From Ollibium composti (GTDB lineage Bacteria; Pseudomonadota; Alphaproteobacteria; Rhizobiales; Rhizobiaceae), in contig NZ_SSNY01000002.1 in the NCBI RefSeq assembly GCF_004801285.1, forward strand, positions 372,001 through 436,000: a stretch of 64,000 bases of DNA, given 5' to 3'. The notes under the pieces are model-generated. The model was not told the origin of the DNA. It saw nothing but the letters and a program-made list of their open reading frames with translations, and made no database searches. A program made the position numbers and the translations under genes. Shown here in pieces: positions 10,546 through 63,885 of this stretch (within the stretch, counting starts at the first letter, position 1; every line of letters begins with the position of its first letter).

Positions 10546-10555
10546 AGGCAGTGAC

Positions 10556-11925: not shown

Positions 11926-12429
11926 ATGGCCGCGAGCGACGACATCCAGACCATCAAGCGACAGGAAGCCGAACTTGTCTTCGACCGCTTCGACGAGGCC
12001 GTCGCTTTCGCGCTCGGCACGGCGATCCGTGAGCGGGCGCTCAAGGAAAACCTGCCCATCGTCGTCGACATCCGCACCTTCGACCGGCCGCTGTTCTACG
12101 CCGCCATGCCGGGCTCGAATGCCTCCAATCCGGACTGGGCGCGCCGCAAGATCAACGTGGTGAAGCGCTTTCTGAAAAGCACCTACCGCATGGTGCTCGA
12201 GCAGCAGCGGCCAGACCGCACCTTCAAGCCGGGCGAGGGGCTGGACGTTTCCGACTACGTGCTGGCCGGCGGCGGTTTTCCGGCAACGGTGAGGAATGCC
12301 GGCGTCGTCGGCGTTATCGCCGTCTCCGGCCTGCCGGAGCGTGACGATCACGGCTTGGTGGTGGAGGCGCTGTGCGCGCATCTCGGCAAAGATGCCGGGG
12401 CGCTGGCATTGCCGGCAAATGATGCCTGA
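11926..12429 (+). CDS. UPF0303 / heme-degrading-domain (GlcG/HbpS-like) protein
   Basis: A 167-residue protein of the UPF0303 family, related to GlcG/HbpS heme-binding proteins. Typical stretches are AVAFALGTAIRERA, PIVVDIRTFDRPLFYAAMPG, VLAGGGFPATVRNAG and VVGVIAVSGLPERDDHGLV. ATG 11926 follows GGGGA at 11915-11919; the upstream in-frame start at 11875 overlaps guaD and looks non-coding. No active-site chemistry can be read out. Its place between guaD and glycerate kinase suggests a link to the purine/glyoxylate route, but this could equally be chance. Confidence 0.85.
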   Translation: MAASDDIQTIKRQEAELVFDRFDEAVAFALGTAIRERALKENLPIVVDIRTFDRPLFYAAMPGSNASNPDWARRKINVVKRFLKSTYRMVLEQQRPDRTFKPGEGLDVSDYVLAGGGFPATVRNAGVVGVIAVSGLPERDDHGLVVEALCAHLGKDAGALALPANDA

Positions 12430-12436
12430 AATGCCG

Positions 12437-12567
12437 CGCCGCCCCTCATCCGCCTGCCGGCGCCTTCTCCCCGTGAACGGGGAGAAGGGGACTGGCCGCG
12501 CCGTCGCAGCCTCCTTCCTCGCCCCGTTCACGGGGAGAGGATGCTGGCAGGCAGGTGAGGGGCGGCG
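12437..12567. repeat. Type C paired inverted repeat upstream of glycerate kinase
   Basis: The outer arms CGCCGCCCCTCA (12437-12448) and TGAGGGGCGGCG (12556-12567) are perfect complements, with nested hairpins around CTCCCCGTGAACGGGGAG. The same architecture occurs at 19233-19358 with compensating base changes. It fills most of the 177-base gap before the glycerate kinase gene. Confidence 0.88.
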
Positions 12568-12606
12568 CCGGCCGGCGGCCGGTTTGCGAAGCGAGGATTT
12601 TTCGGC

Positions 12607-49238: not shown

Positions 49239-50420
49239 CTATTCCGCCGGCTCCATCTTGCAGTCCGCGGCATAGACGTCGCTGTGGTCGCTCAGCACCT
49301 TCTTTTCGGTCTTGAGCACCATCTTGCCGTCGGCGCCCTTCTCGGCCGTCAGCGCGTACCAGTCCTGGATCGGGTGCTGGTTCGGGCCGAACTTGAACTT
49401 GCCGCGCACGGTCGGGATGTCGGAGGTCAAAAGCGCCTTGCGGAAGGCGGCGAGGTCGTCGGGACCGGCACTCTTCTCCAGCCCGACTCCGAACAGAAGG
49501 GCCGCGTCGTAGCCTTGCGCGGCGTAGTAGGTGATCGGCCGGTCGCCGTACTTGGCCTTCCAGGCGGCGACGAAGGCCTTGTTGACGGGATTGTCGAAAT
49601 CCTCGTTCCAGTGGCTGGTGACCTGCACGCCGGTGGCGGCGTCGCCGACCGCCTGCACGATCGCCTGGTCGAGCGAGGCCGGATGCACCACCATGGGGAT
49701 TTCCTTGAGCAGGCCGGCCTGCTCGTACTGGCGCATGAAGGCGATGCCGAGGCCGCCCGGCTCGAACTCGTAGACGACGTCGGGCTTGGCGGCGCGGATC
49801 TGCGCCATTTCGGCGGCGAAGTCGGTCTGGTCAAGGCCGGTATAGGTCTCGCCCACCACCTCGCCCTTGTAGAAGCGCTTGAAGGCGACCATCGTCTCCT
49901 TGCCGGCCTGGTAGTTCGGCGCGATCAGGAACGCCTTCTTGTAGTCCAGCGACTGCGCCAGCGCGCCGGCGCTCTCGCCCTGGCTGTCGTCCTGCCAGGA
50001 GCTGACGAAGTAGTTGGCATTGCACTCCTTGCCGGCAAAGGTGGAGGAGGCGGTGTTGGCGCTGATGTAGACGGCGTCGCTGTCGAGGATTTCCGGCACG
50101 GCGGCGAAGGCGACGTTGGCGAAGACCATGCCGGTGAACAGTTTTATCCCCTGTTCGTTCAGCATCTTGTCGGCGATCTGCCGGGCGTTGCCGGGCTTCA
50201 GGCTGTCGTCTTCGACGACCAGCGCGACCGGCTTGCCGCCGAGCTCGCCCTTGTTCTGGTCGATGGCGAGCTGGAAGCCGTCGCGGATGTCCTGGCCGAG
50301 ATAGCCGGCCGGGCCGGACAGCGTGGTGATCATGCCGATCTTCAGGGGTTCGTCGGCCTTCGCGGCGGCGGAGACGGCGAAGGCCAGTGCCGCCGCTGCC
50401 ATGAAACGCTTGCTGAGCAT
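49239..50420 (-). CDS. ABC transporter substrate-binding protein (Liv type), paralogue of 56204-57370
   Basis: A 393-residue periplasmic binding protein with signal peptide (MLSKRFMAAAALAFAVSAAA, cleavage near KADE) and the Leu/Ile/Val-type fold (KIGMITTLSGPAGYLGQDIR, FIAPNYQAG-like LIAPNYQAGKETM, FKFGPNQHPIQDWYALTAEK). It aligns closely along its full length with the operon's own binding protein 7 kb away, by eye more than half identical. It has no permease of its own, so it probably docks on the LivHMFG system downstream. Upstream, a LysR gene lies on the same strand. Confidence 0.92.
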   Translation of the reverse strand: MLSKRFMAAAALAFAVSAAAKADEPLKIGMITTLSGPAGYLGQDIRDGFQLAIDQNKGELGGKPVALVVEDDSLKPGNARQIADKMLNEQGIKLFTGMVFANVAFAAVPEILDSDAVYISANTASSTFAGKECNANYFVSSWQDDSQGESAGALAQSLDYKKAFLIAPNYQAGKETMVAFKRFYKGEVVGETYTGLDQTDFAAEMAQIRAAKPDVVYEFEPGGLGIAFMRQYEQAGLLKEIPMVVHPASLDQAIVQAVGDAATGVQVTSHWNEDFDNPVNKAFVAAWKAKYGDRPITYYAAQGYDAALLFGVGLEKSAGPDDLAAFRKALLTSDIPTVRGKFKFGPNQHPIQDWYALTAEKGADGKMVLKTEKKVLSDHSDVYAADCKMEPAE

Positions 50421-50606: not shown

Positions 50607-51545
50607 TCACGCCAGTTCGGCGGCGACGGTGCGCAGTGTCTGCAGGAACACTTCGGCCGCCGGCGACAGGCGCATGTCGGCGCGCGTGGTGATGCCGATC
50701 AGACCGGCCGTCGCTCTGAGCGCCACCGGCAGGATGACGATGCCGCCGAGCGCGGCTTCCTGCCTTGCCACCTGCGCGGGAAAGACGCCGAGATAGTCGG
50801 CGCTGAGCAGCAATTGCCGGTTGGTCAGCAGCGAGACGGAATCCACCGCGTGCACCGGCGGGTCGAGGCCTTCTTCCATGAAGGTGATGTCGATCTGCCG
50901 GCGCATGTTGGTTTCGGGCGGCGGCAGGATCCATTCCCATTTCGTCAGTTCGGCCAGCGAGACGTTCTTGCGCCGGGTCAGCGGATGGCCACGGCGCGCG
51001 ACCACGCTGGCGAAATCCGCCGTCAGCACCTCCTGGCTGAGGCTCATGGTCTCGCGCCGTTCCGACAGCCGGCCGATGACGAGGTCGAGGTCGCCGGCCT
51101 TGAGCGCCGGGATCAGCACGTCGTCCATGCCTTCCACCACCTTGACGACCAGCTTCGGCCGCTCGCGGCGCAGCTGCGCGATCGCCTTGGGCAGGAGTTC
51201 GGCCGAGGCCGCCAGCAGCGTGCCGATCGCCACCCTGCCGCCCTTGCCGTCGCGCAGGTCCGCCAGATGCTCCTCGGCGTGTGCGAGCTGCGCCAGAACC
51301 AGCCGCGCATGGTCGGCCAGCGTGGTGCCGAAAAGGGTCGGCACGACGCCGCGGTTGGTGCGGTCGAACAGGTGGGCGCGCGTCAGCGCCTCGATCTCCT
51401 GCAGGGCCTTCGTCACCGCCGATTGCGTCATGTTGAGGCGCTTGGCGGCGCGCACCAGGTTGCCTTCCTCCACGATCGCCACCACCATGCGCAGGTGGCG
51501 AAGGGTCAGGTGTGTCGTCAGCGGCTTGGAGCGCGTTTCGTTCAT
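50607..51545 (-). CDS. LysR-family regulator of the quinolone-type catabolic operon
   Basis: A 312-residue LysR regulator of the GbpR/CbpR-like branch: helix-turn-helix LRHLRMVVAIVEEGNLVRAA with RLNMTQSAVTKALQEIE, then effector domain (VAIGTLLAASAELLPKAI, WILPPPETNMRRQ). Starts at 51545, 51563 and 51608 are all in frame; none has a perfect ribosome spacing, and 51545 is used for the first residues before the conserved helix. It is divergent from the FAD monooxygenase gene, so it very likely controls that operon. Confidence 0.9.
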   Translation of the reverse strand: MNETRSKPLTTHLTLRHLRMVVAIVEEGNLVRAAKRLNMTQSAVTKALQEIEALTRAHLFDRTNRGVVPTLFGTTLADHARLVLAQLAHAEEHLADLRDGKGGRVAIGTLLAASAELLPKAIAQLRRERPKLVVKVVEGMDDVLIPALKAGDLDLVIGRLSERRETMSLSQEVLTADFASVVARRGHPLTRRKNVSLAELTKWEWILPPPETNMRRQIDITFMEEGLDPPVHAVDSVSLLTNRQLLLSADYLGVFPAQVARQEAALGGIVILPVALRATAGLIGITTRADMRLSPAAEVFLQTLRTVAAELA

Positions 51546-51650: not shown

Positions 51651-52808
51651 ATGCGCGAAAGCGGAGGCAAGCGCCATGCGGAGATCGCCGGGGCCGGCAT
51701 CGGCGGCCTGACGACGGCGGCCGCGCTGGCGCAGCGCGGCTGGTCGGTGACCGTGCATGAGCGCGCGTCGACCCTGCGCACCTTCGGCGCCGGCATCTAT
51801 ATCTGGAGCAACGGCCTGCGTGTGCTCAAGGCCATCGGCGCCTATGACAAGGCGACCGTCGGCGCCCATGTCGGCCCTGAGTTCCACACCCGCGACCACG
51901 ACGACATCACGATGGAGGAAATCCCCATCAATGGTCCGGGCGACGCGCGTCTGATCACCATCCTGCGCGAGACGCTCATCAACACGCTTGTCGATGTCTG
52001 CCGCGAAGCCGGCGTTGAAATCCGCACCGGCTCGGAAGCCGTCGGCGCGACGCCCGAGGGTGAATTGCTGCTGGCCGATGGCACGCGTTGCAAGGCCGAT
52101 CTGGTCGTCGGCGCCGACGGCATCAATTCGCGCGTGCGCGATTCCCTCGACCTGCTGCTCTACCGCCGCGACCTCGGCTATGGCGCGATCCGCATGCTGA
52201 TCCCGCGCGCCAGGGGCGACGTGCCGCATGAGGACGAGAACCGCTACATCGAATATTTCTCCGGCTCGCGCCGCATCCTCTATACGCCGGCCAGCGCCGA
52301 CGATCTCTATGTCGCGCTGTGCTGCGGCGCCGACGACGCCGAGGCGCTGAAGGTGCCGGCGGACCGGGCGCTGTGGACGCAGTCCTTCCCGCATCTCGCC
52401 AACCTGATCGTGCGCTTCGGCGATGCCGGCCGCTGGGACGTCTTCGAAGTCGCCAAGCTGAAGCGCTGGAGCAAGGGCCGGGTGGCCATTGTCGGCGATG
52501 CGGCCCATGCCATGCCGCCCTATCTCGGACAGGGCGGCGGCTGCGCGCTGATGAACGGGCTGGCGCTCGCGGTCACCGTCGCCGACGCCGCCGACATCGG
52601 CAACGCGCTGGGCGAATGGGAAGCGCGCGAGCGGCCGCTGACCGAGCACACGCAGGACACCGCCGAAAACCTCGGCAGCATGAACACCTGGCCGGACGAC
52701 GTGCGCTCGGCCGTGCTCAAGATCGTCGGCAAATCGCGCGAACTGGGCGAGGTGCGCATGCGCACGGCCAGGCATGTGCCGACCGGAACGGAGGCATTCC
52801 CGCTTTGA
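51651..52808 (+). CDS. FAD-dependent aromatic monooxygenase (group A, NicC/salicylate-hydroxylase-like)
   Basis: A 385-residue flavoprotein hydroxylase: dinucleotide-binding AGAGIGGLTTAAALAQRG, the second FAD/NAD motif VVGADGINSRVRDSL, and GDAAHAMPPYLGQGGG. No membrane segment. It would add a hydroxyl to an aromatic acid with NAD(P)H. It is directly followed, two bases on, by an HOD-like dioxygenase, whose substrates are 3-hydroxy-4-oxoquinolines; so C3 hydroxylation of a 4-quinolone is the obvious prediction. Start ATG 51651 has GGGACGGA upstream; the frame start at 51597 is also possible. Confidence 0.9.
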   Translation: MRESGGKRHAEIAGAGIGGLTTAAALAQRGWSVTVHERASTLRTFGAGIYIWSNGLRVLKAIGAYDKATVGAHVGPEFHTRDHDDITMEEIPINGPGDARLITILRETLINTLVDVCREAGVEIRTGSEAVGATPEGELLLADGTRCKADLVVGADGINSRVRDSLDLLLYRRDLGYGAIRMLIPRARGDVPHEDENRYIEYFSGSRRILYTPASADDLYVALCCGADDAEALKVPADRALWTQSFPHLANLIVRFGDAGRWDVFEVAKLKRWSKGRVAIVGDAAHAMPPYLGQGGGCALMNGLALAVTVADAADIGNALGEWEARERPLTEHTQDTAENLGSMNTWPDDVRSAVLKIVGKSRELGEVRMRTARHVPTGTEAFPL

Positions 52809-52810
52809 CC

Positions 52811-53605
52811 ATGAAATCCATCCAGATCGGCGCCAACGCCTTTTCCTGGGACGAGGCCGGGCAGGGCGACGTGCTGCTGCTGCTGTCGGGCTGGTGCCAG
52901 GATCACCGCCTGTTCAAGACGCTGGCGCCGGAACTGGCGAAAACCCATCGCGTCATCCGCCTCGACTGGCGCGGCCATGGCGAGCACCGCGAGCACGACG
53001 GCGATTTCGTCACCGCCGACCAGGCGACCGACGTCATCGCCTTCCTCGACAAGTTGGAGATCGGCAAGGTCGTGCCCGTCTCGACCTCGCATGGCGGCTG
53101 GGCCAACATCGAGACGACCGACCGGCTGGGGCCTTCGCGCATCCCGCGCTCGGTGGTGATCGACTGGATCCAGACGACGCCGAACGAGGATTTCTTCCGT
53201 GCCATCGAGGAGTTGCAGGAGCGTTCGGCCTGGGAGAAGGGCCGCGACGACCTGTTCGCCTACTGGATCGGCGACACCGAAAATTGCGATATCGTCGACC
53301 ATGTCAGCAAGGAGATGGCCGGCTACAGCTTCGAGATGTGGGCGCGTTCGGGCCGCGAGATCGCAAGAGCCTACCGCAAGTGGGGCAACCCCATGCGGCG
53401 CATGGCTGCGATGAAGGAGCACCGGCCGATCACCCACATCTATTCGCAGCCCTTCGAGCCGGAATATACGCAGGCGCAGCTCGATTTCGCCGCGCAGAAC
53501 GCCTGGTACAGGCCGAACAAGCTGCCGGGTCGTACGCATTTCCCGACGCTGGAACAGCCGAAGGCGGTGGCCGACGCCATCCGCGCCTTCCTGAAGGACG
53601 CGTGA
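52811..53605 (+). CDS. Cofactor-independent 2,4-dioxygenase of the HOD/QDO family (alpha/beta-hydrolase fold)
   Basis: A 264-residue protein that matches 1H-3-hydroxy-4-oxoquinaldine 2,4-dioxygenase along its whole length: SGWCQDHRLFKTL (W28), LDWRGHGEH, the Ser elbow TSHGGW (S93), VVIDWI (D118), MWARSGREI, HIYSQPFEPEY and THFP (H243). Ser93, Asp118 and His243 sit exactly eight residues before HOD S101, D126 and H251. HOD cleaves the ring between C2 and C4 and releases CO without metal or cofactor. Gln30 and Thr92 stand where I recall HOD having His38 and His100. It follows the monooxygenase and precedes a hydrolase fit for the amide product. Confidence 0.9.
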   Translation: MKSIQIGANAFSWDEAGQGDVLLLLSGWCQDHRLFKTLAPELAKTHRVIRLDWRGHGEHREHDGDFVTADQATDVIAFLDKLEIGKVVPVSTSHGGWANIETTDRLGPSRIPRSVVIDWIQTTPNEDFFRAIEELQERSAWEKGRDDLFAYWIGDTENCDIVDHVSKEMAGYSFEMWARSGREIARAYRKWGNPMRRMAAMKEHRPITHIYSQPFEPEYTQAQLDFAAQNAWYRPNKLPGRTHFPTLEQPKAVADAIRAFLKDA

Positions 53606-53607
53606 GG

Positions 53608-54489
53608 ATGGCAAGCCGCATCGCCGAGGAAGCCAGCTGGCCGCGCGAGAGATTGGACCGCGACTACAATGCACGGGCGACCATTCCGGTCGCGGCCTAC
53701 GAGGCAGAAATGCTGCGCTATCGCGCCATGTCGGATGCGGCGCGCGAATCCGATGCGACGCATCTCGACGTGGTCTATGATGCAGAAAGCGGCCAGACGC
53801 TGGACATCTTCGGCACGGCGGCCGGCGAGCTCCGCCCTGTCTTCGTGTTCATCCACGGCGGCTACTGGCGCGCGCTGTCGAAGCGCGATTCCGCCTTCAT
53901 GGCCGGCATGCTGGCGAAGCATGGCATCGCCTCCGCCGCCGTCGACTACCGCCTCGCGCCGGAAACCTCGCTGGCCGAGATCGTGCGCGAGGTGCGCGCG
54001 GCGATCGCCTTCCTGTCGAAGAACGGCCGCGCCTACGGCATCGATCCGGGCAGGATTTACGTCGGCGGCAGCTCGGCCGGAGGGCATCTCACGGGTACCG
54101 TGATCGCGGGCGGCTGGCAAAGGGACTTCGGCGTGCCCGACGACGTCGTCAAGGGTGCGCTGCCGGTCAGCGGCCTGTTCCATCTGGGGCCGATCGCGAA
54201 GTCCTACGTGCAGGACTGGATGCGGCTGGACGACGCGGCGGTCGGCGCGCTGAGCCCGGCTGAGAACCTGCCCGGCAGCGGCTGCCCCATCGTGGTCGCC
54301 TACGCCGCCGGGGAAGCCGACGGCTTCAAGCGGCAGTCGGTGGACTACGACCGGCAATGGCGCGAAGCCGGCTTTTCCTCGGAACTGATCGAGGTGCCGC
54401 GCCGCAATCATTTCGACGTCATCCTCGACCTTGCCGACGAGGATACGGAACTGTCGTGGGCCTTGCTGCGCCTGATCGGCAAGGCTTGA
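53608..54489 (+). CDS. Arylformamidase-like alpha/beta hydrolase
   Basis: A 293-residue hydrolase of the BNA7/AFMID-type: oxyanion motif FIHGGYWRALSKRD, nucleophile YVGGSSAGGHLTG, and catalytic His in PRRNHFDVI. HGGYW is typical of kynurenine formamidases, which cut N-acyl-anthranilate-type amides. Here it follows the HOD-like gene by two bases, whose product is an N-acylanthranilate, so amide cleavage to an anthranilate is predicted. It is the counterpart of the hydrolase that accompanies the PQS-degrading dioxygenase cluster in other bacteria, by role. Confidence 0.85.
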   Translation: MASRIAEEASWPRERLDRDYNARATIPVAAYEAEMLRYRAMSDAARESDATHLDVVYDAESGQTLDIFGTAAGELRPVFVFIHGGYWRALSKRDSAFMAGMLAKHGIASAAVDYRLAPETSLAEIVREVRAAIAFLSKNGRAYGIDPGRIYVGGSSAGGHLTGTVIAGGWQRDFGVPDDVVKGALPVSGLFHLGPIAKSYVQDWMRLDDAAVGALSPAENLPGSGCPIVVAYAAGEADGFKRQSVDYDRQWREAGFSSELIEVPRRNHFDVILDLADEDTELSWALLRLIGKA

Positions 54490-54531
54490 AATCAAGACCG
54501 GCCGCGGCCGGATGCGGACACTGGAAGAGCG

Positions 54532-56090
<1,559 letters not shown>

Positions 56091-56112
56091 TTTCAAGCAT
56101 GTAATTTTGTCT

Positions 56113-56132
56113 GCCGGGTCGTCCGACCCGGC
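56113..56132 (+). other. Stem-loop between 3-hydroxyanthranilate dioxygenase and the transporter
   Basis: GCCGGGTCG pairs perfectly with CGACCCGGC around a two-base loop. No T run follows, so it is a hairpin rather than a clear terminator; it may limit read-through or protect mRNA ends between the enzyme genes and the binding-protein gene. Confidence 0.55.
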
Positions 56133-56203
56133 GGGCCGGAAACGACGGTGCAACGAGAAGCGACCGAAGGCCGCCGAAGCGAAACAGAGGAGAACGAAAA
56201 GAC

Positions 56204-57370
56204 ATGCTGAGGAGAACTTTTTTGGCGCTTGCCGCGTCCGCCATGGCCGCCTTCCCGGCCCTGGCGCAGGACCCGGTCAAGATCGGCCTGATCACCACGC
56301 TGTCGGGACCGGGCGGCTATATCGGCCAGGATATCCGTGACGCCTTCCAGCTCGCCATCGACATGGAAGGCGGCAAGCTCGGCGGCGTGCCGGTGGACGT
56401 CAAGGTCGAGGACGACGCCCTGAAGCCAGGGCAGGGCAAGCAGATCGCCGAGAAGATGCTTTCCAACGACGGCGTCAAGCTGTTCACCGGCATCGTCTTC
56501 TCCAACGTCGCGGGTGCGACGGTGCCCGACATCGTCGATGCCGGCGCGTTCTACATCAGCCCCAACGCCGCGCCCTCGAACATGGCGGGCAAGGAGTGCA
56601 ACGAGAACTACTTCGTCGTCTCCTGGCAGAACGACAGCCTGCACGAGAGCGCCGGCCAGCTGGCGCAGAACCTCGGCTACAAGACCGCCTTCGTGCTGGC
56701 GCCGAACTACCAGGCCGGCAAGGACGCCATCACCGGCTTCAAGCGCTACTTCAAGGGCGAGATCGTCGGCGAGACCTACACCAGCCTCGACCAGACCGAC
56801 TTCGCCGCCGAAATGGCGCAGATCCGCGCCGCCAAGCCGGAAGTCGTGTTCCAGTTCCATCCCGGCGGCCTCGGCATCGCCTTCCTGCGCCAGTATGAGC
56901 AGGCAGGGCTCTTGAGCACCGTGCCGATGGTGCTGGCCGAGCCTTCCATGGACGCGGTGACGCTGAAGGCCATCGGCGACGCGGCGGTGGGGCTCAACAT
57001 CTCCTCGCACTGGAACGCGGACTTCGACAATGCGGCCAACAAGAATTTCATGGAAGCGTGGATGAAGGCGTACAACCGCATGCCGACCTACTACGCCAGC
57101 CAGAGCTACGATACGGCCTTGGCGATCGCCTCGGCGCTGAAGGCCACCGGCGGTAACATGGACGACGCCGACGCCTTCCGCGACGCCATGCGCAAGGCGG
57201 ATTTCGAATCCGTGCGCGGCAAGTTCAAGTTCGGCGTCAACCAGCATCCGATCCAGGACTGGTACCACCTCAAGGTGGAAAAGGGCGAGGACGGCAAGCC
57301 GGTCATCAAGACCGTCGGCGACGTCTTCAAGGACCACGGCGACGCCTACGCCGACCAGTGCAAGATGTAG
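56204..57370 (+). CDS. ABC transporter substrate-binding protein (Liv type)
   Basis: A 388-residue periplasmic binding protein: signal peptide MLRRTFLALAASAMAAFPAL, AQ cleavage region, then KIGLITTLSGPGGYIGQDIR, CNENYFVVSWQNDSLHESAG, LDQTDFAAEMAQIRAAKPE and FKFGVNQHPIQDWYHLKVEK. It belongs to the branched-chain amino acid family, members of which also bind aromatic acids, ureas or amides. Its close paralogue is at 49239-50420. Followed by a strong hairpin and the LivHMGF genes. Confidence 0.93.
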   Translation: MLRRTFLALAASAMAAFPALAQDPVKIGLITTLSGPGGYIGQDIRDAFQLAIDMEGGKLGGVPVDVKVEDDALKPGQGKQIAEKMLSNDGVKLFTGIVFSNVAGATVPDIVDAGAFYISPNAAPSNMAGKECNENYFVVSWQNDSLHESAGQLAQNLGYKTAFVLAPNYQAGKDAITGFKRYFKGEIVGETYTSLDQTDFAAEMAQIRAAKPEVVFQFHPGGLGIAFLRQYEQAGLLSTVPMVLAEPSMDAVTLKAIGDAAVGLNISSHWNADFDNAANKNFMEAWMKAYNRMPTYYASQSYDTALAIASALKATGGNMDDADAFRDAMRKADFESVRGKFKFGVNQHPIQDWYHLKVEKGEDGKPVIKTVGDVFKDHGDAYADQCKM

Positions 57371-57386
57371 CAGACGACGTCTCCAC

Positions 57387-57414
57387 GGCCGCGGCGGCCA
57401 GTTCCGCCGCGGCC
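57387..57414 (+). other. Strong GC stem-loop between binding-protein and livH genes
   Basis: GGCCGCGGCGG (57387-57397) pairs perfectly with CCGCCGCGGCC (57404-57414) around a six-base loop. In such operons a hairpin here usually stabilises the binding-protein mRNA and lowers permease expression. A weak T-rich stretch follows. Confidence 0.75.
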
Positions 57415-57452
57415 GCTCCATTCTCTTTCCGGAACGACCAGGGCGCTCCTCG

Positions 57453-58367
57453 ATGACGCTTTTCCTCGAGCAATTGCTGAACGGATTGCAGTTCGGCGTC
57501 ATGCTCTTCCTGCTGGCGGCGGGCCTGACGCTGATCTTCGGCATCATGGGCGTCATCAACCTCGCGCACGGCTCGATCTACATGGTCGGCGCCTATGCCG
57601 GCACCTGGGTGGCGATGCAGACCGGTTCCTTCTTCCTCGGCATTCCGGCAGCGCTTGCCGCCGCCGCGCTGGTCGGCGCGGCCATCGAGTTCCTCATCGT
57701 GCGCCGCCTCTACAAGCGCGACCATCTCGACCAGGTGCTGGCGACCTTCGCGCTGATCCTCATCTTCAACCAGGTCGTCACGCTGCTGTTCGGCCGCCAG
57801 CCGCTGTTCGTCTCGATCCCGCCGCTCCTCGACGGTTCGGTCCAGTTGCTGCCGGGCCTGCCCTATCCGGTCTATCGCCTCGCCATCATCGTCGTCGGCC
57901 TTCTGATCGCCGTCGGCCTTTACCTGCTCATCAACAAGACGCGCATCGGCATGCTGGTGCGCGCCGGCTCCACCAACCGAGAGATGGTGCGCGCGCTCGG
58001 CGTCGACGTGCGCGTGCTCTACACCATCGTCTTCGGCCTCGGTGCGCTGCTGGCGGGACTGGCCGGCATGATGGCCGGGCCGATCCTGGCGGTGCAGGTC
58101 GGCATGGGCGAGCAAATCCTCATCACCACCTTCGTCGTCGTCGTCATCGGCGGCGTCGGCTCCATCCGCGGCGCCTTCGTCGCCTCCTTGCTGCTCGGCG
58201 TCGTCGACACCATGCTGCGCGCCTACCTGCCGTCGATGCTGCGTCACGTCATGGTCGGCCCGGAGGCAGACGCGCTCGGCGCCGGCATCGCCTCCATGGG
58301 CATCTACCTGTTGATGGCCCTGGTGCTTCTCATCCGCCCCAAGGGGCTGTTCGCCTCCAATTTCTGA
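57453..58367 (+). CDS. ABC transporter permease LivH family
   Basis: A 304-residue permease: FLEQLLNGLQFGVMLFLLAA start, GLTLIFGIMGVINLAHGSIY (family motif), RIGMLVRAGSTNREMVRALG (cytoplasmic coupling loop) and VVIGGVGSIRGAFVASLLLG. It is the first of two permeases and pairs with LivM. The start ATG 57453 lies 82 bases after the binding-protein stop, beyond the hairpin. Confidence 0.94.
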   Translation: MTLFLEQLLNGLQFGVMLFLLAAGLTLIFGIMGVINLAHGSIYMVGAYAGTWVAMQTGSFFLGIPAALAAAALVGAAIEFLIVRRLYKRDHLDQVLATFALILIFNQVVTLLFGRQPLFVSIPPLLDGSVQLLPGLPYPVYRLAIIVVGLLIAVGLYLLINKTRIGMLVRAGSTNREMVRALGVDVRVLYTIVFGLGALLAGLAGMMAGPILAVQVGMGEQILITTFVVVVIGGVGSIRGAFVASLLLGVVDTMLRAYLPSMLRHVMVGPEADALGAGIASMGIYLLMALVLLIRPKGLFASNF

Positions 58368-58380
58368 TCCGGCCCGCTTC

Positions 58381-59364
58381 ATGGACAACTCGATCAAGAA
58401 ACAGATCCTGCTGGCGGTAGTCGCGGTGCTCCTGCTCGCCCTGCCGTTCATCGCCAGCGCAACGGGCTACCCGGCGATGACCTCGCTGGCGACACGCGCG
58501 CTGATCTACGGCATCGCCGCCGCCAGCCTCAACCTCGTGCTCGGCTATGGCGGCATGGTCAGTTTCGGCCACGCCGCCTTCTTCGGCCTCGGCGGCTACG
58601 TCGTCGGCATCCTCTACCAGCACTACACCCAGGACGACCTGTTCCTCGGCCTCGTCCCCGGCACCAACCAGTTGCTCGTCACGCTGCCGGTGACGCTGAT
58701 CGTCTGCGGCGCGGCCGCAGCCCTGATCGGCGCCCTGTCGCTGCGCACCGGCGGCGTGCAGTTCATCATGATCACGCTCGCCTTCGCGCAGATGCTGTTC
58801 TTCCTGTTCGTCTCGCTCAAGACCTATGGCGGCGACGACGGGCTGATCATCCGCCGCACCAACGAACTGTTCGGGCTGAAGATGCGCGACAAGCAGACCT
58901 ACTACTATGTCTGTCTGGCCATCACGGCGGTGTTCTTCTTCCTACTCTGGCGGCTGGTCAATTCGCGCTTCGGCAACGTGCTCACCGGGCTGCGCCAGAA
59001 CGCGCGGCGCATGGCCGCCCTCGGCCTGCCGGCCTATCGCTACAAGCTGGTCGCCTTCATCATCTCCGGCATGGGCGCCGGGCTGGCCGGTTGCCTGATG
59101 GCGAATTTCCTGCGCTTCGCCAGCCCCGACATGGTGCACTGGACGAAGTCGGGCGAACTGATGGTCATGGTGGTGCTGGGCGGCGTCGGCACGCTGTTCG
59201 GGCCGCTGATCGGCGCGGCCGCCTATATCGTGCTGGAATCGGTGCTGGCCTCGTGGACCGAATACTGGCAGCTCGGCCTCGGCTTCATCCTCCTGTTCGT
59301 CGTGCTCTACACCAACGGCGGCATCGAGGCACTGTTCGGCCGTCTTCTCGGGAGGCGCGTATGA
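58381..59364 (+). CDS. ABC transporter permease LivM family
   Basis: A 327-residue permease: LIYGIAAASLNLVLGYGGMV, FGHAAFFGLGGYVVGILY, RFGNVLTGLRQNARRMAALG (coupling loop) and MVMVVLGGVGTLFGPLIGA. Thirteen bases after LivH. Its stop overlaps the LivG start as ATGA, so the two are coupled. Confidence 0.94.
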   Translation: MDNSIKKQILLAVVAVLLLALPFIASATGYPAMTSLATRALIYGIAAASLNLVLGYGGMVSFGHAAFFGLGGYVVGILYQHYTQDDLFLGLVPGTNQLLVTLPVTLIVCGAAAALIGALSLRTGGVQFIMITLAFAQMLFFLFVSLKTYGGDDGLIIRRTNELFGLKMRDKQTYYYVCLAITAVFFFLLWRLVNSRFGNVLTGLRQNARRMAALGLPAYRYKLVAFIISGMGAGLAGCLMANFLRFASPDMVHWTKSGELMVMVVLGGVGTLFGPLIGAAAYIVLESVLASWTEYWQLGLGFILLFVVLYTNGGIEALFGRLLGRRV

Positions 59365-60119
59365 GCGGGCCGATCCTGTCCGTAAGGGGACTGGTCAAGC
59401 GCTTCGGCGGCCTCGTCGCCACCGACGGCGTGACCATCGACGTCCGTCCCGACGAAATCCATGCGCTGATCGGCCCCAACGGCGCCGGCAAGACGACGCT
59501 GATTTCCCAGCTCGTCGGCGAGTTGAGGCACGACGCCGGCACGATCGAGCTGGAGGGCAGGGATATCGGCGCGCTGCCTACCGCCCGCCGCATCGGCCTC
59601 GGCCTCGGGAGGACCTTCCAGATCACCTGCCTTTTGCCGGAGTACACCGTGCTCGACAACGTCGCGACCGGCGTGCAGGTCCGGCAGGGACACTCCTTCC
59701 GCTTCTGGGGCAATGTGCGGGGCGAGACGGCGCTACGCGAGACAGCGCTCAGCTTCCTCGAGACCATCGGCCTGGCGGGACGCGCCGACGAGCAGGTCGC
59801 CAACCTGTCGCATGGCGAGCAGAAGCAGCTCGAGCTTGCGGTGGCGCTCGCCACCGAACCGCGTCTGCTGCTGCTCGACGAGCCGATGGCAGGGCTCGGC
59901 CACTCCGAAAGTCGCCAGATGGTGGCGCTTTTGATGGCGCTGAAGACCAAGGTCAGCATGCTTTTGGTCGAGCACGACATGGACGCCGTCTTCGCACTCG
60001 CCGACCGCATCTCTGTGCTGGTCTACGGCCGCGTCATCGCCACCGGCACGGCCGACGAGATTCGCGACAACGCGGACGTGCGCGCCGCCTATCTCGGCGA
60101 GGGAGACGAGCTATGCTGA
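59361..60119 (+). CDS. ABC transporter ATP-binding protein LivG family
   Basis: A 252-residue ATPase: Walker A LIGPNGAGKTTLIS, signature NLSHGEQKQLELAVAL, Walker B LLLLDEPMAGLG and switch His in LLVEHDMDAVF. It has the LivG FQI segment GLGRTFQITCLLPEYTVLDN. The last seven bases overlap the livF start. It energises uptake with LivF. Confidence 0.94.
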   Translation: MSGPILSVRGLVKRFGGLVATDGVTIDVRPDEIHALIGPNGAGKTTLISQLVGELRHDAGTIELEGRDIGALPTARRIGLGLGRTFQITCLLPEYTVLDNVATGVQVRQGHSFRFWGNVRGETALRETALSFLETIGLAGRADEQVANLSHGEQKQLELAVALATEPRLLLLDEPMAGLGHSESRQMVALLMALKTKVSMLLVEHDMDAVFALADRISVLVYGRVIATGTADEIRDNADVRAAYLGEGDELC

Positions 60120-60814
60120 GCGTCAGCGGGCTGCAATCGGCCTACGGGCCGAGCCAGGTGCTGTTCGACGTGGAACTCGGCGTCGGCGAGGGCGAGGTGG
60201 TGACGCTGCTCGGCCGCAACGGCATGGGCAAGACGACGACGGTGCGCTCCATCATGGGGCTGTTGAAGCCCAGCGCCGGCACGGTGCGGTTTACCGGCCG
60301 CGAGGTGTCGGGCGCGACGCCGGAAACGGTCGCGCGCCTCGGCGTCGGCCTCGTGCCCGAGGGCCGCCAGACCTTCCCGACGCTGACGGTACGCGAAAAC
60401 CTCGTCGCCACCGCCTCGAACCGGCTGAAGCGGCAAAACCCGTGGACGCTGGAGCGCGTCTATGCGCTGTTTCCCCGGCTCGGCGAACGCGCCGGCCAGG
60501 CCGCCGGCACGCTGTCGGGCGGCGAGCAACAGATGCTGGCGGTCGGCCGCGCGCTGATGACCAACCCGAAGCTGCTCATCCTCGACGAGGCGACGGAAGG
60601 GCTGGCGCCCGTCATCCGTGCCGAGATCTGGCGCTGCATCGAGGCGCTCAAGGCCGAGGGCCAGTCGATCCTGCTGATCGACAAGAACATCCATGTGCTG
60701 AAGCGGCTCGCCGACCGCCACTACATCCTCGAAAAGGGCCGCACGGTCTGGTCCGGCTCCAGCGCCGAGCTCACCGCCAACGCCGATCTGGTGCATCGCT
60801 ATGTCGGCATCTGA
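60113..60814 (+). CDS. ABC transporter ATP-binding protein LivF family
   Basis: A 233-residue ATPase: Walker A LLGRNGMGKTTTVRSIMG, VPEGRQTFPTLTVRENL, signature TLSGGEQQMLAVGRALM and Walker B LLILDEATEGLAP. The switch position reads LLIDKNIHVLKRLADR, with Lys-Asn-Ile in place of the usual QNxxxAL, as in many LivF proteins. It overlaps both neighbours, seven bases of livG and 14 bases of the dehydrogenase gene. Confidence 0.93.
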   Translation: MLSVSGLQSAYGPSQVLFDVELGVGEGEVVTLLGRNGMGKTTTVRSIMGLLKPSAGTVRFTGREVSGATPETVARLGVGLVPEGRQTFPTLTVRENLVATASNRLKRQNPWTLERVYALFPRLGERAGQAAGTLSGGEQQMLAVGRALMTNPKLLILDEATEGLAPVIRAEIWRCIEALKAEGQSILLIDKNIHVLKRLADRHYILEKGRTVWSGSSAELTANADLVHRYVGI

Positions 60815-61628
60815 CAGGCAAGGCGGCCGCCGTCTGCGGCTCGGCTTCGTCGGCTGGGGCGCCATCGCCACGCGCGTCGCCCAATTGCTGGCCGAGCGGC
60901 AAGCACCCGTCGACATCATCGCCATCGCGGTGCGCGATGCCGACAGGGCACGGCCGGATTTGCCGACCGGCGCGCGGCTGATTTCGGAACCTGGCGAACT
61001 GGCCGGCCTCGGCCTCGACATGGTGATCGAGGCGGCCGGGCGTCCGTCCGTGCCGGTCTGGGGCGAAGCGGCGCTGCGCCATGCCAGGCGCTTCGCGGTG
61101 TCCTCGACCAGCGCCTTCTGCGACGAGGCGTTGCTTGCCCGGCTTGTCGAGGTTGCGCGCGAGAACGGCAGCCAGATCGTCATTCCGCCCGGCGCGCTCG
61201 GCGGAATGGATGCGCTGACGGCTGCCTCCGCCGTTCGCATCGACGAGGTGGTGCATTTTATCGTCAAGCCGCCGCGCGCCTGGAAAGGCACCGCCGCCGA
61301 AACGCTGCTCGACCTGGATGCGCTGGCTGAGCCGAAAACCTTCTTTGCCGGCACGGCGCGCGAGGCAGCGGACGCCTTTCCGCAGAACGCCAATGTCGCG
61401 GTCATCTCGGCGCTCGCCGGCATCGGCCTCGACAGCACCCGTGTCGAGCTGGTGGCCGATCCGGCCGCGTCCCGCAATTCCCATCGGCTCAGCGCCTCCG
61501 GCGCTTTCGGCCGCATGGAGATGCTGTTCGAGAACGAACCGCTGAAAACCAATCCCAAGTCATCGGAACTGACGGCGCTCAACCTCGTGCGGCTGGTCGA
61601 AAACCAGGTCGCGCCGCTTGCGCATTAG
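60801..61628 (+). CDS. NadX-like aspartate/amino acid dehydrogenase
   Basis: A 275-residue NAD(P)-dependent dehydrogenase of the aspartate dehydrogenase family: LGFVGWGAIATRVAQLLAER (Rossmann), VPVWGEAALRHARRFAVSS, IPPGALGGMDALTAAS, IVKPPRAWKG, FPQNANVAVISAL and LSASGAFGRMEM with the conserved pocket region. Aspartate dehydrogenases interconvert amino acids and imines. It starts inside the livF 3' end, overlapping by 14 bases, so it is firmly part of this operon. It may act on an amino intermediate of the pathway rather than aspartate. Confidence 0.85.
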   Translation: MSASDRQGGRRLRLGFVGWGAIATRVAQLLAERQAPVDIIAIAVRDADRARPDLPTGARLISEPGELAGLGLDMVIEAAGRPSVPVWGEAALRHARRFAVSSTSAFCDEALLARLVEVARENGSQIVIPPGALGGMDALTAASAVRIDEVVHFIVKPPRAWKGTAAETLLDLDALAEPKTFFAGTAREAADAFPQNANVAVISALAGIGLDSTRVELVADPAASRNSHRLSASGAFGRMEMLFENEPLKTNPKSSELTALNLVRLVENQVAPLAH

Positions 61629-61652
61629 CCGTCGCGCATCATGGAGACTAGA

Positions 61653-63092
61653 ATGGCGACCTCGTATCCCGACCTCATGCTCTATATCGACGGCGCCTGG
61701 CGCAAGAGCGCCGAGACGCTGCCGGTGCTGAACCCGGCCGACGAAACCGTCGTCGGCGCGGTGCCGGTCGCCTCCCGCGCCGATCTCGACGATGCGCTCG
61801 CCGCCGCCGACAAGGGGTTCCGGATCTGGAGCCGGACGGCGCCGGCCAAGCGCGCCGCCATCATCCTGAAGGCCGCCGCGCTGATGCGCGAGCGCATCGA
61901 CGAGATCGCCCGCTCGATCACGCTGGAACACGGCAAGCCCTTCCCGCAGGCGCGGCTGGAGGTCATCCGCGGCTGCGAGTTCTTCGAATGGGACGCCGCC
62001 GAAGGCCAGCGCACCTATGGCCGCGTCGTCCCCAGCGAGCCCGGCATCCGCTACATCGTCCACCACCAGCCGATCGGCACGGTCGCCGCCTTCTCGCCGT
62101 GGAACTTCCCGATGAGCCAGCCGGCGCGCAAGATCGCCGGCGCGCTGGCCAGTGGCTGTTCCATCATCATCAAGGCGGCCGAGGAAACCCCGGCCGGCGC
62201 CTATCACATCGCGCGCGCCTTCCACGACGCGGGCCTGCCCGCCGGCGTCTTCAACCTCGTCTTCGGCGTGCCGGCCGACATCTCCTCCTATCTCATCCCG
62301 CAGCCGCAGGTGCGGCTGGTCGCCTTCACCGGCTCGACGGCGGTCGGCAAGCACCTGTCGGAACTGGCGGCCCGCCACATGACGCCGGTGCTGATGGAAC
62401 TCGGCGGCCATGCGCCGGTGATCGTCTGCGACGACGTCGACCCGGTCGAAGCCGCCGTCACCTCGGCCGTCCGCAAGGCGCGCAACGCCGGCCAGGTCTG
62501 CACTTCGCCGACGCGCTTCTTCGTGCAGGAGCGGATCTACAAGACCTTTGCCGACACCTTCGCCGAGAAGGCGCGCGCCGTTTCCATCGGCAACGGCTTC
62601 GATGCCGGCGTCGAGATGGGGCCGCTGGCGAACCATCGCCGCATCGAGGCGATGGAGATGCTTGTGGCCGACGCCAGGGCCAAGGGGGCACGCGTGCTGG
62701 CGGGCGGCGAGCGGCTCGGCAATCGCGGCTACTTCTTCCCCGTAACAGTGCTCGCCGACCTGCCGGACGACGCGCGCGTCATGCGCGAGGAGCCGTTCGG
62801 CCCGCTCGCCGTCATCAATCCGGTTTCGTCGCTCGACGAGGCGATCGAGAAGGCCAACGCGCTGCCCTTCGGGCTCGCCGCCTACGCCTTCACCCATTCG
62901 GCCAGCAACGCCGACCGGCTGGCGGACGGCATCGAGGCGGGCAACGTCTCGATCAACACGCTGGAGGCTTCGGTGGCCGAGGTGCCGTTCGGCGGCGTCA
63001 AGGACAGCGGCTACGGCCGCGAAGGCGGCATCGAGGGCCTGCTGCCCTATACGGTCGTCAAGAACGTGTCGCACCGCATGGCGATCGCCTGA
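61653..63092 (+). CDS. NAD(P)-dependent aldehyde dehydrogenase (semialdehyde type)
   Basis: A 479-residue ALDH: FSPWNFPMSQPARKIAGAL, KAAEETPAGAYHIAR, FTGSTAVGKHLSELA, catalytic Glu in LMELGGHAPVIV and nucleophile Cys in NAGQVCTSPTRFFV. It resembles the succinate-semialdehyde and 2-aminomuconate-semialdehyde branches. In a route through 3-hydroxyanthranilate it would oxidise the semialdehyde formed after ring opening. ATG 61653 has GGAG six bases upstream; ATG 61641 is an in-frame alternative. Confidence 0.9.
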   Translation: MATSYPDLMLYIDGAWRKSAETLPVLNPADETVVGAVPVASRADLDDALAAADKGFRIWSRTAPAKRAAIILKAAALMRERIDEIARSITLEHGKPFPQARLEVIRGCEFFEWDAAEGQRTYGRVVPSEPGIRYIVHHQPIGTVAAFSPWNFPMSQPARKIAGALASGCSIIIKAAEETPAGAYHIARAFHDAGLPAGVFNLVFGVPADISSYLIPQPQVRLVAFTGSTAVGKHLSELAARHMTPVLMELGGHAPVIVCDDVDPVEAAVTSAVRKARNAGQVCTSPTRFFVQERIYKTFADTFAEKARAVSIGNGFDAGVEMGPLANHRRIEAMEMLVADARAKGARVLAGGERLGNRGYFFPVTVLADLPDDARVMREEPFGPLAVINPVSSLDEAIEKANALPFGLAAYAFTHSASNADRLADGIEAGNVSINTLEASVAEVPFGGVKDSGYGREGGIEGLLPYTVVKNVSHRMAIA

Positions 63093-63105
63093 GGCGAACC
63101 GATCG

Positions 63106-63885
63106 TCAGGGGCGCGTCACCGCCAGCACGCGCAGCGGACTTCCCGAGCCGTTGAGGATTTTCAGCGGCGCCGTGATCAGGATCGCGCCCGTGGGAGGCA
63201 GCCGGTCGAGGTTGCACAGGCATTGCAGCCCGTAGCGGCCGGCGCCGTGCAGGAAATGGTGCGCCGGATGCGGCGGTTCGAAATGGCTCGCCTGGCCGGC
63301 ATCCGTGCCGATCGTTTCGGTGCCGAAACCGAGGATTCCGCGCTCCTCGACCAGCCATTTCATCACCTCCGCGTCTGGGCCGGGCGTATGCGCGCCGTCC
63401 TCCTTCAGGTTGGCGTAGTCGCGCGGCGAGCGCTTCGACCAGTCGGTGCGCAGCAGCACCCAGTGGCCTCGGGGAATGCGGCCGTGCTCCTCTTCCCATG
63501 CCTCGACACGGGCGCGCGTCAGCAGGAAGTCGGCGTCGGCGGCCGCCTCGCCGGAACAGTCGATGACGCAGGCCGGCGCGATCATGTGCTCGGCCGGCAG
63601 CGTGTCCACCGCGTTGTTGGGCAGGTCCTTGCCGGTGTACCAGTGGATCGGCGCGTCGAAATGCGTGCCGGTGTGCTCGCCCAGCGTGATGTTGTTCCAG
63701 TACCAGCCGGGCCCCCTGCCGTCGTAGCGCGAAATCTCGCGGATGCGCACGGGTGCCGCCTGGCCGAATTCCGGCGGCAGCACGATGACGGGGAAGTCCG
63801 GCGTCAGCGTCGCCGTCAGGTCGACGACGCGCAGCGCGCCCGTCGCGATGGCGGCGGCGAAATCCAGCGGGTCGGGTGCGGCCAT
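63106..63885 (-). CDS. Cyclase-family metal hydrolase (KynB/isatin-hydrolase-like)
   Basis: A 259-residue cyclase-family protein with the metal motif GEHTGTHFDAPIHWY (HxGTHxDxPxH), plus RVVDLTATLTPDFPV and HWVLLRTDWSKRSP. The family includes bacterial kynurenine formamidase KynB and isatin hydrolase, both of aromatic amide substrates. It is convergent with the ALDH gene and on the same strand as the partial gene at the window edge, so it belongs to a second transcript of the same locus. Confidence 0.88.
   Translation of the reverse strand: MAAPDPLDFAAAIATGALRVVDLTATLTPDFPVIVLPPEFGQAAPVRIREISRYDGRGPGWYWNNITLGEHTGTHFDAPIHWYTGKDLPNNAVDTLPAEHMIAPACVIDCSGEAAADADFLLTRARVEAWEEEHGRIPRGHWVLLRTDWSKRSPRDYANLKEDGAHTPGPDAEVMKWLVEERGILGFGTETIGTDAGQASHFEPPHPAHHFLHGAGRYGLQCLCNLDRLPPTGAILITAPLKILNGSGSPLRVLAVTRP

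Follow-up and report, generated by a model that had tools for sequence, protein, structure and literature searches.

A candidate operon for 8-hydroxy-4-quinolone catabolism in Ollibium composti, with a putative ACMSD-free lower part

The question raised by this locus of the soil bacterium Ollibium composti is which compound is broken down by an operon that joins a HOD-type dioxygenase to a 3-hydroxyanthranilate 3,4-dioxygenase (3-HAO), and how the product is digested further. Within the window (the whole stretch of DNA analysed, 64,000 nucleotides), twelve co-directional genes occupy positions 51651–63092 of the plus strand (Table 1). A preliminary description had assigned them to the degradation of xanthurenate via 3-hydroxyanthranilate (3-HAA). 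Open reading frame, domain and curated-profile searches recovered every gene that it named, including the divergent LysR gene, and the single run with overlaps or short gaps is borne out, no gap exceeding 113 nt. The HOD-like gene starts 2 nt after the FAD monooxygenase gene, and the amidase gene overlaps its end (53602 versus 53605; an alternative ATG lies at 53608). Scans of the window for Rfam families and tRNA genes gave no hits. The operon probably serves the catabolism of an 8-hydroxy-4(1H)-quinolone, for which xanthurenate is the likeliest candidate, through an upper trio and a lower part free of ACMSD.

Table 1. Genes of the candidate operon and its flanks, in window positions
Feature	Position	Strand	Basis
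livK0, second Liv-type periplasmic binding protein	49239..50420	-	72-89% identical copies at HOD loci
LysR regulator, PcaQ-like	50607..51545	-	profile score; divergent from operon
FAD monooxygenase, proposed 4-quinolone 3-hydroxylase	51651..52808	+	meq/aqd-cluster relatives; closest solved structure MHPCO
HOD/QDO-type cofactor-free 2,4-dioxygenase	52811..53605	+	255 bits to QDO 3ibt; catalytic residues aligned
Proposed N-acyl-3-hydroxyanthranilate amidase, BD-FAE, alpha/beta hydrolase	53602..54489	+	PF20434; 49% to third meq-trio gene
DHDPS-fold Schiff-base lyase, proposed hydratase-aldolase (or decarboxylase) of 3-HAA lower pathway	54532..55488	+	PF00701; K177; 3-HAO linkage
3-hydroxyanthranilate 3,4-dioxygenase (3-HAO)	55536..56090	+	TIGR03037
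livK, binding protein of 3-HAA module	56204..57370	+	domain search and locus comparison
livH permease	57453..58367	+	ORF and locus comparison
livM permease	58381..59364	+	ORF and locus comparison
livG ATPase	59361..60119	+	ORF and locus comparison
livF ATPase	60113..60814	+	ORF and locus comparison
NadX-like aspartate dehydrogenase, proposed for C4 amino/imino product	60801..61628	+	NF009828
SSADH-like aldehyde dehydrogenase (ALDH)	61641..63092	+	domain and profile searches
Isatin hydrolase A relative, convergent, outside operon	63106..63885	-	385 bits to 5nnb

The contiguous monooxygenase, HOD and aryl-amidase genes have the order of the meq trio of quinaldine degradation on plasmid pAL1 of Arthrobacter sp. 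Rue61a, with identities of 48, 39 and 49%, respectively. At meq, a set of molybdenum enzyme genes comes ahead of the trio, and an MFS transporter takes the place of the Liv ABC importer. The monooxygenase is also 43% identical to the one beside AqdC2 in the alkylquinolone/PQS (aqd) pathway of Rhodococcus erythropolis BG43, where the HOD is 37% identical to that of the host; the aqd partner, in contrast, is of the carboxylesterase type and is alike over 93 residues only (32%). The trio is thus of the meq/aqd kind, much as the preliminary description had supposed in likening it to that for the quinolone signal. The HOD-like protein exhibits whole-length alpha/beta-hydrolase similarity to QDO (residues 1–262) and HOD (219 bits, residues 18–260), and its S93, D118 and H243 align with S101, D126 and H251 of HOD. 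The Asp and the nucleophile-elbow Ser presumably take part in HOD/QDO catalysis. Published work gives the catalytic His as H244 in QDO and H251 in HOD (PMC6479552), and describes the ring opening of this type, as in the meq pathway, as releasing CO (PMC3534580, PMC6479552). The HOD-like enzyme may be expected from its sequence to release CO from a 3-hydroxy-4-oxoquinoline likewise. A search of public proteins returned 161 relatives of it at E up to 1e-60, and the names among the best 120 do not go beyond 'dioxygenase' or a generic hydrolase; the closest plasmid-borne relatives (93 records) are less than 60% identical.

The third gene had been described as an arylformamidase-like hydrolase. A hydrolase it is, and it is 49% identical to the gene in third place in the quinaldine trio, which we take to be an N-acetylanthranilate amidase. 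The amidase gene also occurs in 3-HAA modules that have no HOD, so that the substrate of the enzyme may be something other than the HOD product. With regard to CO, the best match to the CO dehydrogenase large-chain model scored 668.9 against a cut-off of 991.15, so that no CO-using enzyme is claimed.

The identity of the product is indicated by the fifth gene. The 3-HAO protein clears both curated NCBIfam cut-offs (264.8 versus 220 and 248.7 versus 145.95 bits; TIGR03037), and its gene is the sole copy found in the host genome. Thirty of 33 loci with HOD relatives could be judged: one was dropped (L034; 34%, 117 residues), and two (L002 and L016) were left out, their contigs being too short to reach the 3-HAO position. 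3-HAO adjoins HOD in 25 of these, which span three phyla with the other five, and is encoded elsewhere in the genome in those five (L011, L014 and three Brevibacillus), where the two genes lie far apart. The preliminary description had proposed a neighbourhood search for this co-occurrence and had named a lack of joint conservation as grounds for refutation; with 3-HAO in all 30 judgeable HOD loci or genomes, these grounds fall away. In an order-wide sample of 397 genomes, 3-HAO is present in all three HOD genomes, which belong to one genus and include the host, versus 35 of the 397 overall. The Paenibacillus (L031) and Saccharopolyspora (L028) HOD loci also carry the classical 3-HAA pathway, in whole or for the most part, and that of Streptomyces (L032) carries part of it. 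The Brucella loci were compared only, and the L026 locus is full of frame breaks, which were left uncorrected.

Other HOD types are represented by five named loci on plasmids (meq, aqd, Nocardia, Prescottella and Pantoea); 3-HAO is absent from the 10.8–16.8 kb around each, including 14.7 kb for meq, whose product is anthranilate, and 10.8 kb for aqd. Because HOD and 3-HAO are conserved together, and other HOD types are without 3-HAO nearby, the product of the upper part is probably 3-hydroxyanthranilate, as previously claimed, rather than a meq-type anthranilate, and the substrate an 8-hydroxy-4-quinolone.

The fate of 3-HAA appears to depend on the remaining enzymes. In the nba/onb 2-nitrobenzoate and kynurenine-type lower pathway, 3-HAO is likewise the ring-cleaving enzyme, and in the onb route it is followed by a decarboxylase (OnbD), a dehydrogenase, a deaminase and further steps to acetyl-CoA (PMC5817917). 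In contrast, the host module has a DHDPS-fold enzyme, NadX and an ALDH (or a molybdenum enzyme elsewhere), without ACMSD. The window operon contains neither ACMSD nor the classical tail genes beside 3-HAO (deaminase, FAA hydratase/decarboxylase, DmpG and DmpF), and in the host genome ACMSD was found neither with a Paenibacillus query nor with an alphaproteobacterial one, which recovered it from four other genomes. In these four sampled genomes (matches of at least 67% identity; 38 further genomes have weaker amidohydrolase matches) ACMSD adjoins 3-HAO, and never together with DHDPS. Both DHDPS and a close ACMSD are missing from three of the 35 3-HAO genomes.

The DHDPS-fold protein is a class I lyase of PF00701, with a TIM barrel and a Schiff-base lysine (K177, equivalent to DapA K161 in 30 of 30 sequences). 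It is not DapA: TIGR00674 gives 85.7 versus 206.15 bits, DapA T44–T45 are K59–Q60, and W150 replaces Y133 in all 30. NahE/PhdJ, the trans-o-hydroxybenzylidenepyruvate hydratase-aldolase, is also a DHDPS-fold lyase in an aromatic pathway, and the PhdJ structure 6dan is among the fold matches (rank 47); however, identity to NahE is 25% over 165 residues, and NahE Y155, presumably its active-site Tyr, is likewise W150 in all 30. The lysine spacing was counted by eye, MAFFT misplacing NahE beyond residue 158. With Trp in place of the DapA/NahE Tyr, a retro-aldol role would rest on the lysine and the pathway logic. The fold matches of the predicted structure, which is moderately confident (pLDDT 73.9, from 7 close sequences), show the class, that of TIM-barrel aldolases, and do not indicate the reaction.

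3-HAO occurs in 28 of 30 sampled DHDPS genomes (p 3.9e-34, with related genomes treated as independent; 19 of 21 genera) and is missing from two; in 23 of the 28 the two genes are at most 10 kb apart. A NadX relative is present in 26 of the 30 and missing from four; in 20 of the 26, the best one lies no more than 10 kb from DHDPS. The host NadX-like protein scores above the cut-off of NF009828 (242.7 versus 177 bits) and below that of the equivalog TIGR03855 (154.1 versus 206.55). Among 61 loci examined, 37 have DHDPS and 3-HAO, many of them closely related; NadX is visible in 23 of these stretches. Twenty-five have the ALDH, nine the molybdenum enzyme, none both and three neither (L008, L085, with a molybdenum enzyme just under the cut, and L167), at cut-offs of 60% identity for ALDH and 45% for the molybdenum enzyme. 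Below these cut-offs, an ALDH of 53% identity accompanies the molybdenum enzyme of L078, and a molybdenum relative of 30% accompanies the ALDH of L089. By sequence comparison, ALDH and molybdenum hydroxylase replace each other and are mutually exclusive at the cut-offs used.

Wider stretches were examined for 20 of the 35 3-HAO genomes and for eight of the best 25 of 868 plasmid records; these eight give the lyase no more specific name than 'dihydrodipicolinate synthase family protein'. A kynureninase gene, a known source of 3-HAA, adjoins the DHDPS module in Shinella, and PnbB-type and FMN/flavin reductase genes adjoin it in Rhizobium and Sinorhizobium. The latter may represent a path from nitrobenzoate to 3-HAA comparable to that of onbA/onbB (PMC5817917), although their Pfam name, 4-hydroxylaminobenzoate lyase, would lead elsewhere. 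Together with 3-HAO, the DHDPS, NadX and ALDH genes seem to form a widespread module taking the place of the ACMSD route, which the preliminary description missed.

Two flanking genes alter the limits of the unit. A copy of livK0 stands in the DNA stretches around 24 of the 25 Hyphomicrobiales HOD loci, the only exception (L002) being a 3.2 kb contig, and it is kept at L011 and L014, where 3-HAO is not nearby. It seems, therefore, to belong to the HOD unit, outside the range of 51651–63885 first described. The convergent gene, at first called KynB/isatin-hydrolase-like and included in the route, is indeed a relative of isatin hydrolase A, but against the arylformamidase model it reaches 31 bits (cut-off 223). 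No isatin hydrolase relative was found in the stretches around the 33 HOD loci, several of which end before the expected place, and the gene shares its strand with the neighbouring gene set; it was consequently rejected as part of the operon. The LysR protein scores 216 bits, below the PcaQ cut-off of 303.8.

The following scheme may be proposed. The Liv transporters, with two binding proteins, would import the quinolone and 3-HAA-type acids. The FAD enzyme would hydroxylate C3 of the quinolone, and the HOD-type enzyme would insert O2 across C2 and C4 and expel C3 as CO, giving an N-acyl-3-hydroxyanthranilate (N-oxalyl-3-hydroxyanthranilate if the substrate is xanthurenate), from which the amidase would free 3-HAA. 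3-HAO would convert this to 2-amino-3-carboxymuconate semialdehyde, probably the aldehyde that the ALDH, or the molybdenum hydroxylase in other species, would oxidise, so that the ring-cleavage product could not close to quinolinate. In the DHDPS-fold enzyme, K177 would then form a Schiff base with the 2-imino/oxo acid, which hydration and retro-aldol cleavage would split into fragments of four carbons (iminosuccinate/oxaloacetate) and three carbons (malonate semialdehyde); the C4 imine and aspartate would be interconverted by NadX. That all of this holds as one complete, undescribed pathway, from xanthurenate to CO, oxalate and 3-HAA, and by ACMSD-free oxidation and DHDPS-fold splitting to malonate semialdehyde, iminosuccinate and, through NadX, aspartate, with the lower module present in many Alphaproteobacteria and supplied by interchangeable sources (quinolones, kynureninase or nitrobenzoate genes), is a tentative proposal, and we hold it to be rather doubtful as a whole.

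The step of the DHDPS-fold enzyme could be otherwise. It could be a decarboxylase replacing ACMSD, after which ALDH would make 2-aminomuconate and scattered genes would complete the route; this we regard as possible, if on the doubtful side. DHDPS adjoins 3-HAO where ACMSD does in other genomes (L082 and L083), Schiff-base formation at C2 would prime the carboxylate on C3 to leave as CO2, and the related KdgD enzymes, a name taken from the profile match, are decarboxylating dehydratases. Since the alphaproteobacterial ACMSD loci L082 and L083 are also without a deaminase or meta-type tail nearby, scattered tail genes are conceivable. On the other hand, the deaminase, FAA, DmpG and DmpF genes, which follow ACMSD in Bacillota, were not found with Paenibacillus queries in the stretches around the DHDPS modules, whereas NadX was. 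One FAA-type gene is present at the HOD locus L014.

As to the substrate, xanthurenate is taken as the likeliest of the 8-hydroxy-4-quinolones, and a compound with H (4,8-dihydroxyquinoline), methyl or alkyl at C2, releasing formate, acetate or a fatty acid instead of oxalate, seems unlikely, though it has some evidence in its favour. QDO, the closest solved enzyme, acts on a 2-unsubstituted ring (PMC6479552), and the resemblance of the amidase to the third meq gene points the same way. Nevertheless, an anion is a more fitting cargo than a neutral quinolone for a dedicated ABC importer with two binding proteins, and the meq, Streptomyces and Paenibacillus loci carry MFS or EamA carriers in its place; xanthurenate is, moreover, the common natural 8-hydroxy-4-quinolone. 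The HOD pocket says too little about the 2-substituent to be of use: the host group is not set apart from QDO, HOD or AqdC2 by any charged position, no carboxylate-specific feature was found, and the only differences are four uncharged residues common to the 32 compared HODs of the host group (A98, V116, A200 and T246). Still less probable is it that two independent units merely adjoin, the HOD trio turning kynurenate or a simple 4-quinolone into anthranilate and the 3-HAO module taking 3-HAA from tryptophan catabolism or elsewhere. The module is common without HOD (32 of the 35 sampled 3-HAO genomes), the units are separated in the five genomes mentioned, and the host genome has a tryptophan dioxygenase and two kynureninase relatives. 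Against this stand the presence of 3-HAO in every judgeable HOD genome, with two different lower pathways, its absence near the five other-type HOD loci, including the anthranilate-forming meq and aqd, and, for anthranilate 1,2-dioxygenase only, a best score in the host genome of 67.6 versus a cut-off of 671.9 bits in a search without a positive control.

Of the preliminary interpretation as a whole, the type of trio and, as most likely, the 3-HAA product are supported, while the membership of the isatin hydrolase relative falls. No catabolic gene set for xanthurenate is named in the open-licence literature searched, nor is an ACMSD-free route for 3-HAA described there, an absence that is weak evidence; to judge from its gene content, the second half of the operon looks like an undescribed way of digesting 3-HAA. 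Tryptophan metabolism yields xanthurenate as an end product that binds iron and is active in signalling. The operon supplies candidate genes for the degradation of xanthurenate, so that the question becomes testable. If the module of DHDPS, NadX and ALDH or molybdenum enzyme does digest 3-HAA, it would be a second bacterial route for a central aromatic intermediate, one that would bypass ACMSD, avoid quinolinate and give central metabolites in few steps.

Twelve plus-strand genes, overlapping or at most 113 nt apart, make up the operon, and the gene content claimed in the preliminary description, from the FAD monooxygenase (FMO) to the aldehyde dehydrogenase (ALDH), is all identified there. 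The 3-hydroxyanthranilate 3,4-dioxygenase (3-HAO) scores above both curated cut-offs and is matched by solved bacterial 3-HAO enzymes, and no second 3-HAO was found in the 4.65 Mb host genome.

Coordinates of the features discussed (L, compared loci; C, contigs of the host genome)
Feature	Location	Position	Orientation or content
Second Liv binding protein gene	window	49239-50420	divergent from operon
LysR gene	window	50607-51545	divergent from operon
Operon	window	51651-63092	FMO, HOD-like dioxygenase, amidase, DHDPS-family lyase, 3-HAO, livK, livH, livM, livG, livF, NadX-like dehydrogenase, aldehyde dehydrogenase
Isatin hydrolase A relative	window	63106-63885	convergent to operon
Purine set	window	330-7243	
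Aromatic genes	L174 (contig C2, right of window)	2909-13000	
Lone Mo subunit	L022	12990-15323	
Lone Mo subunit	L024	12766-14973	
Lone Mo subunit	L145	9719-12004	
Lone Mo subunit	L150	9725-12004	
Tryptophan dioxygenase	C2	222423-223226	
Kynureninase relative	C2	220938-222173	
Kynureninase relative	C15	49317-50528	
CO dehydrogenase-like large subunit	C1	470782-473067	

The HOD-like enzyme best matches the CO-releasing 2,4-dioxygenase QDO (3ibt, 255 bits), followed by 6ra2 (226) and HOD (219), and retains the catalytic His243, Asp118 and Ser93. FMO, HOD and amidase stand in identical order in the quinaldine (meq) cluster of Arthrobacter sp. Rue61a pAL1, with identities of 48, 39 and 49%, respectively. 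The products of that pathway are CO, acetate and anthranilate (PMC3534580). From this order, identity and product set, the upper chemistry is predicted on good grounds to be of the same kind, namely C3 hydroxylation, CO-releasing ring opening and amide hydrolysis. The upper pathway is a variant of the kind represented by meq and by the alkylquinolone/PQS (aqd) cluster of Rhodococcus erythropolis BG43, and is itself new.

HOD relatives turned up at 33 loci in a scan of named genomes; 30 of these loci remain for the linkage count after omission of one weak partial match and two contigs ending too early. The 3-HAO gene lies in the same stretch in 25 of the 30, and whole-genome searches place it elsewhere in the genome in the other five (L011, L014, L027, L029, L033). 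The distant 3-HAO sits in a DHDPS-3-HAO-Liv module in L011 and L014, and in the three Brevibacillus genomes (L027, L029, L033) in runs with relatives of classical-route genes (ACMSD, the decarboxylase after 3-HAO, and deaminase, dehydrogenase, FAA-type, aldolase and acetaldehyde dehydrogenase genes). One Paenibacillus locus (L031) holds HOD, FMO and a BD-FAE hydrolase together with the whole classical route for 3-hydroxyanthranilate (3-HAA); at the HOD loci of Saccharopolyspora (L028) and Streptomyces (L032) that route is partial or rearranged. The L028 stretch has no FMO relative; in its stead it carries genes for an acyl-CoA-dehydrogenase-type protein and a flavin reductase. No 3-HAO occurs near the meq, aqd, Prescottella, Pantoea and Nocardia HOD loci, in plasmid stretches of 10.8-16.8 kb that cover the neighbourhood only. 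Anthranilate 1,2-dioxygenase was not found above cut-off in the host genome, nor in any of 14 control genomes. HOD and 3-HAO are thus conserved together, and this linkage upholds the argument of the preliminary description from the 3-HAO to the 3-hydroxyl. The product of the upper part can be taken with good confidence as 3-HAA.

If the product is 3-HAA, the substrate would be an 8-hydroxy-4-quinolone. Xanthurenate, a naturally abundant compound of this type, is the likeliest, considering its abundance and the presence of an ABC importer served by two binding proteins; a 2-H or 2-alkyl 8-hydroxy-4-quinolone may be used instead. The host has a tryptophan dioxygenase and two kynureninase relatives, and is probably able to produce kynurenines itself. 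It also has a CO dehydrogenase-like large subunit (669 bits, below the model cut-off of 991), and might use the CO from the HOD step. Second HOD relatives in L040 and L041, of the window's genus, are 43-44% identical to the window's HOD and have no FMO, amidase or 3-HAO within the 3.7-3.8 kb examined. In L026 (Brucella cytisi) frame breaks interrupt many cluster genes, probably because of an assembly error.

Downstream of 3-HAO, the classical route requires ACMSD (PMC5817917). ACMSD was not found in the host genome with a Paenibacillus query, nor with an alphaproteobacterial query that did detect it in four sampled genomes (G013, G047, G098, G224); the host seems to lack it. Among 397 sampled genomes of the order, 3-HAO is present in 35 and the DHDPS subfamily (matches at E <= 1e-60) in 30, with both in 28 (Fisher p 3.9e-34; at genus level 19/21, p 5e-17, relatedness not being corrected), and the two genes are <=10 kb apart in 23 of these 28. 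All four genomes with ACMSD carry 3-HAO without the DHDPS gene, and in three other genomes 3-HAO is accompanied by neither. Relatives of NadX are present in 26/30 DHDPS genomes versus 103/397 overall (p 5e-13). Since HOD is present in only 3/35 of the 3-HAO genomes, the lower module is wider than quinolone use.

At the cut-offs used, the 37 loci with DHDPS and 3-HAO have ALDH (25), a molybdenum hydroxylase (Mo, 9) or neither (3), and never both. At some loci (L022, L024, L145, L150 and others) a xanthine dehydrogenase-family molybdopterin-binding subunit stands alone in the position of the ALDH; two plasmid records annotate neither an FeS nor an FAD subunit next to it. The window's purine set, read by eye, comprises an allantoinase/OHCU-decarboxylase-like fusion and XdhA-, XdhB- and XdhC-like genes; the Mo subunit of this set shares only 27% identity with the module enzyme.

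DHDPS, 3-HAO and an 'aspartate dehydrogenase' are found on all eight named plasmid stretches examined, with 3-HAO about 12 kb away in Phaeobacter. The module's neighbours differ. In Shinella it stands beside kynureninase, which converts 3-hydroxykynurenine to 3-HAA; Agrobacterium and Chelatococcus have a BD-FAE amidase next to it; and in Rhizobium bangladeshense and Sinorhizobium mexicanum the neighbours are a PnbB-type gene and genes for FMN and flavin reductases. We read the PnbB-type gene (Pfam name 4-hydroxylaminobenzoate lyase) as a mutase like that of the onb route, in which 2-nitrobenzoate reaches 3-HAA by reductase and mutase (PMC5817917). The meeting of such different feeders at one module argues strongly for 3-HAA as its substrate. 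Two loci, L082 and L083, have 3-HAO, ACMSD, a Liv importer and an amidase, with neither HOD nor DHDPS in the stretch, and perhaps serve to take up and use N-acyl-3-hydroxyanthranilates.

The DHDPS enzyme has the fold of a class I aldolase barrel. The Schiff-base lysine of DapA (K161) is retained as K177 in 30/30 subfamily sequences; DapA Thr44-Thr45 are replaced by Lys59-Gln60 (30/30 and 29/30) and Tyr133 by Trp150 (30/30). By these residues the lyase is neither a DapA nor a NahE-type hydratase-aldolase, and it forms a separate subgroup. The 3-HAO ring-cleavage product would be oxidised to 2-amino-3-carboxymuconate, which would be hydrated and then undergo retro-aldol cleavage at C3-C4, so that the seven carbons of 3-HAA would split into C4 (iminosuccinate or oxaloacetate) and C3 (malonate semialdehyde). 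Such a scheme would account for the aldehyde-oxidising enzyme, the lyase and the aspartate dehydrogenase, with no need for any missing gene. The main alternative, that the lyase is a plain decarboxylase, gains some weight from L082 and L083, alphaproteobacterial ACMSD loci likewise without tail genes nearby.

The isatin hydrolase-like gene, previously counted as a possible part of the operon, has no relative in the stretches examined for the 33 HOD loci, several of which stop short of its position, and is no longer included. It adjoins genes that, judged by eye, encode proteins of the kinds DUF35/SDR, thiolase-like, CoA ligase, thioesterase, gentisate-dioxygenase-like and FAA-hydrolase-like, and forms with them a separate aromatic cluster.

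Neither such a quinolone route nor a DHDPS/NadX module for 3-HAA was found in searches of open-licence papers. If its chemistry is as proposed, the lower module would be a new route built from known folds.
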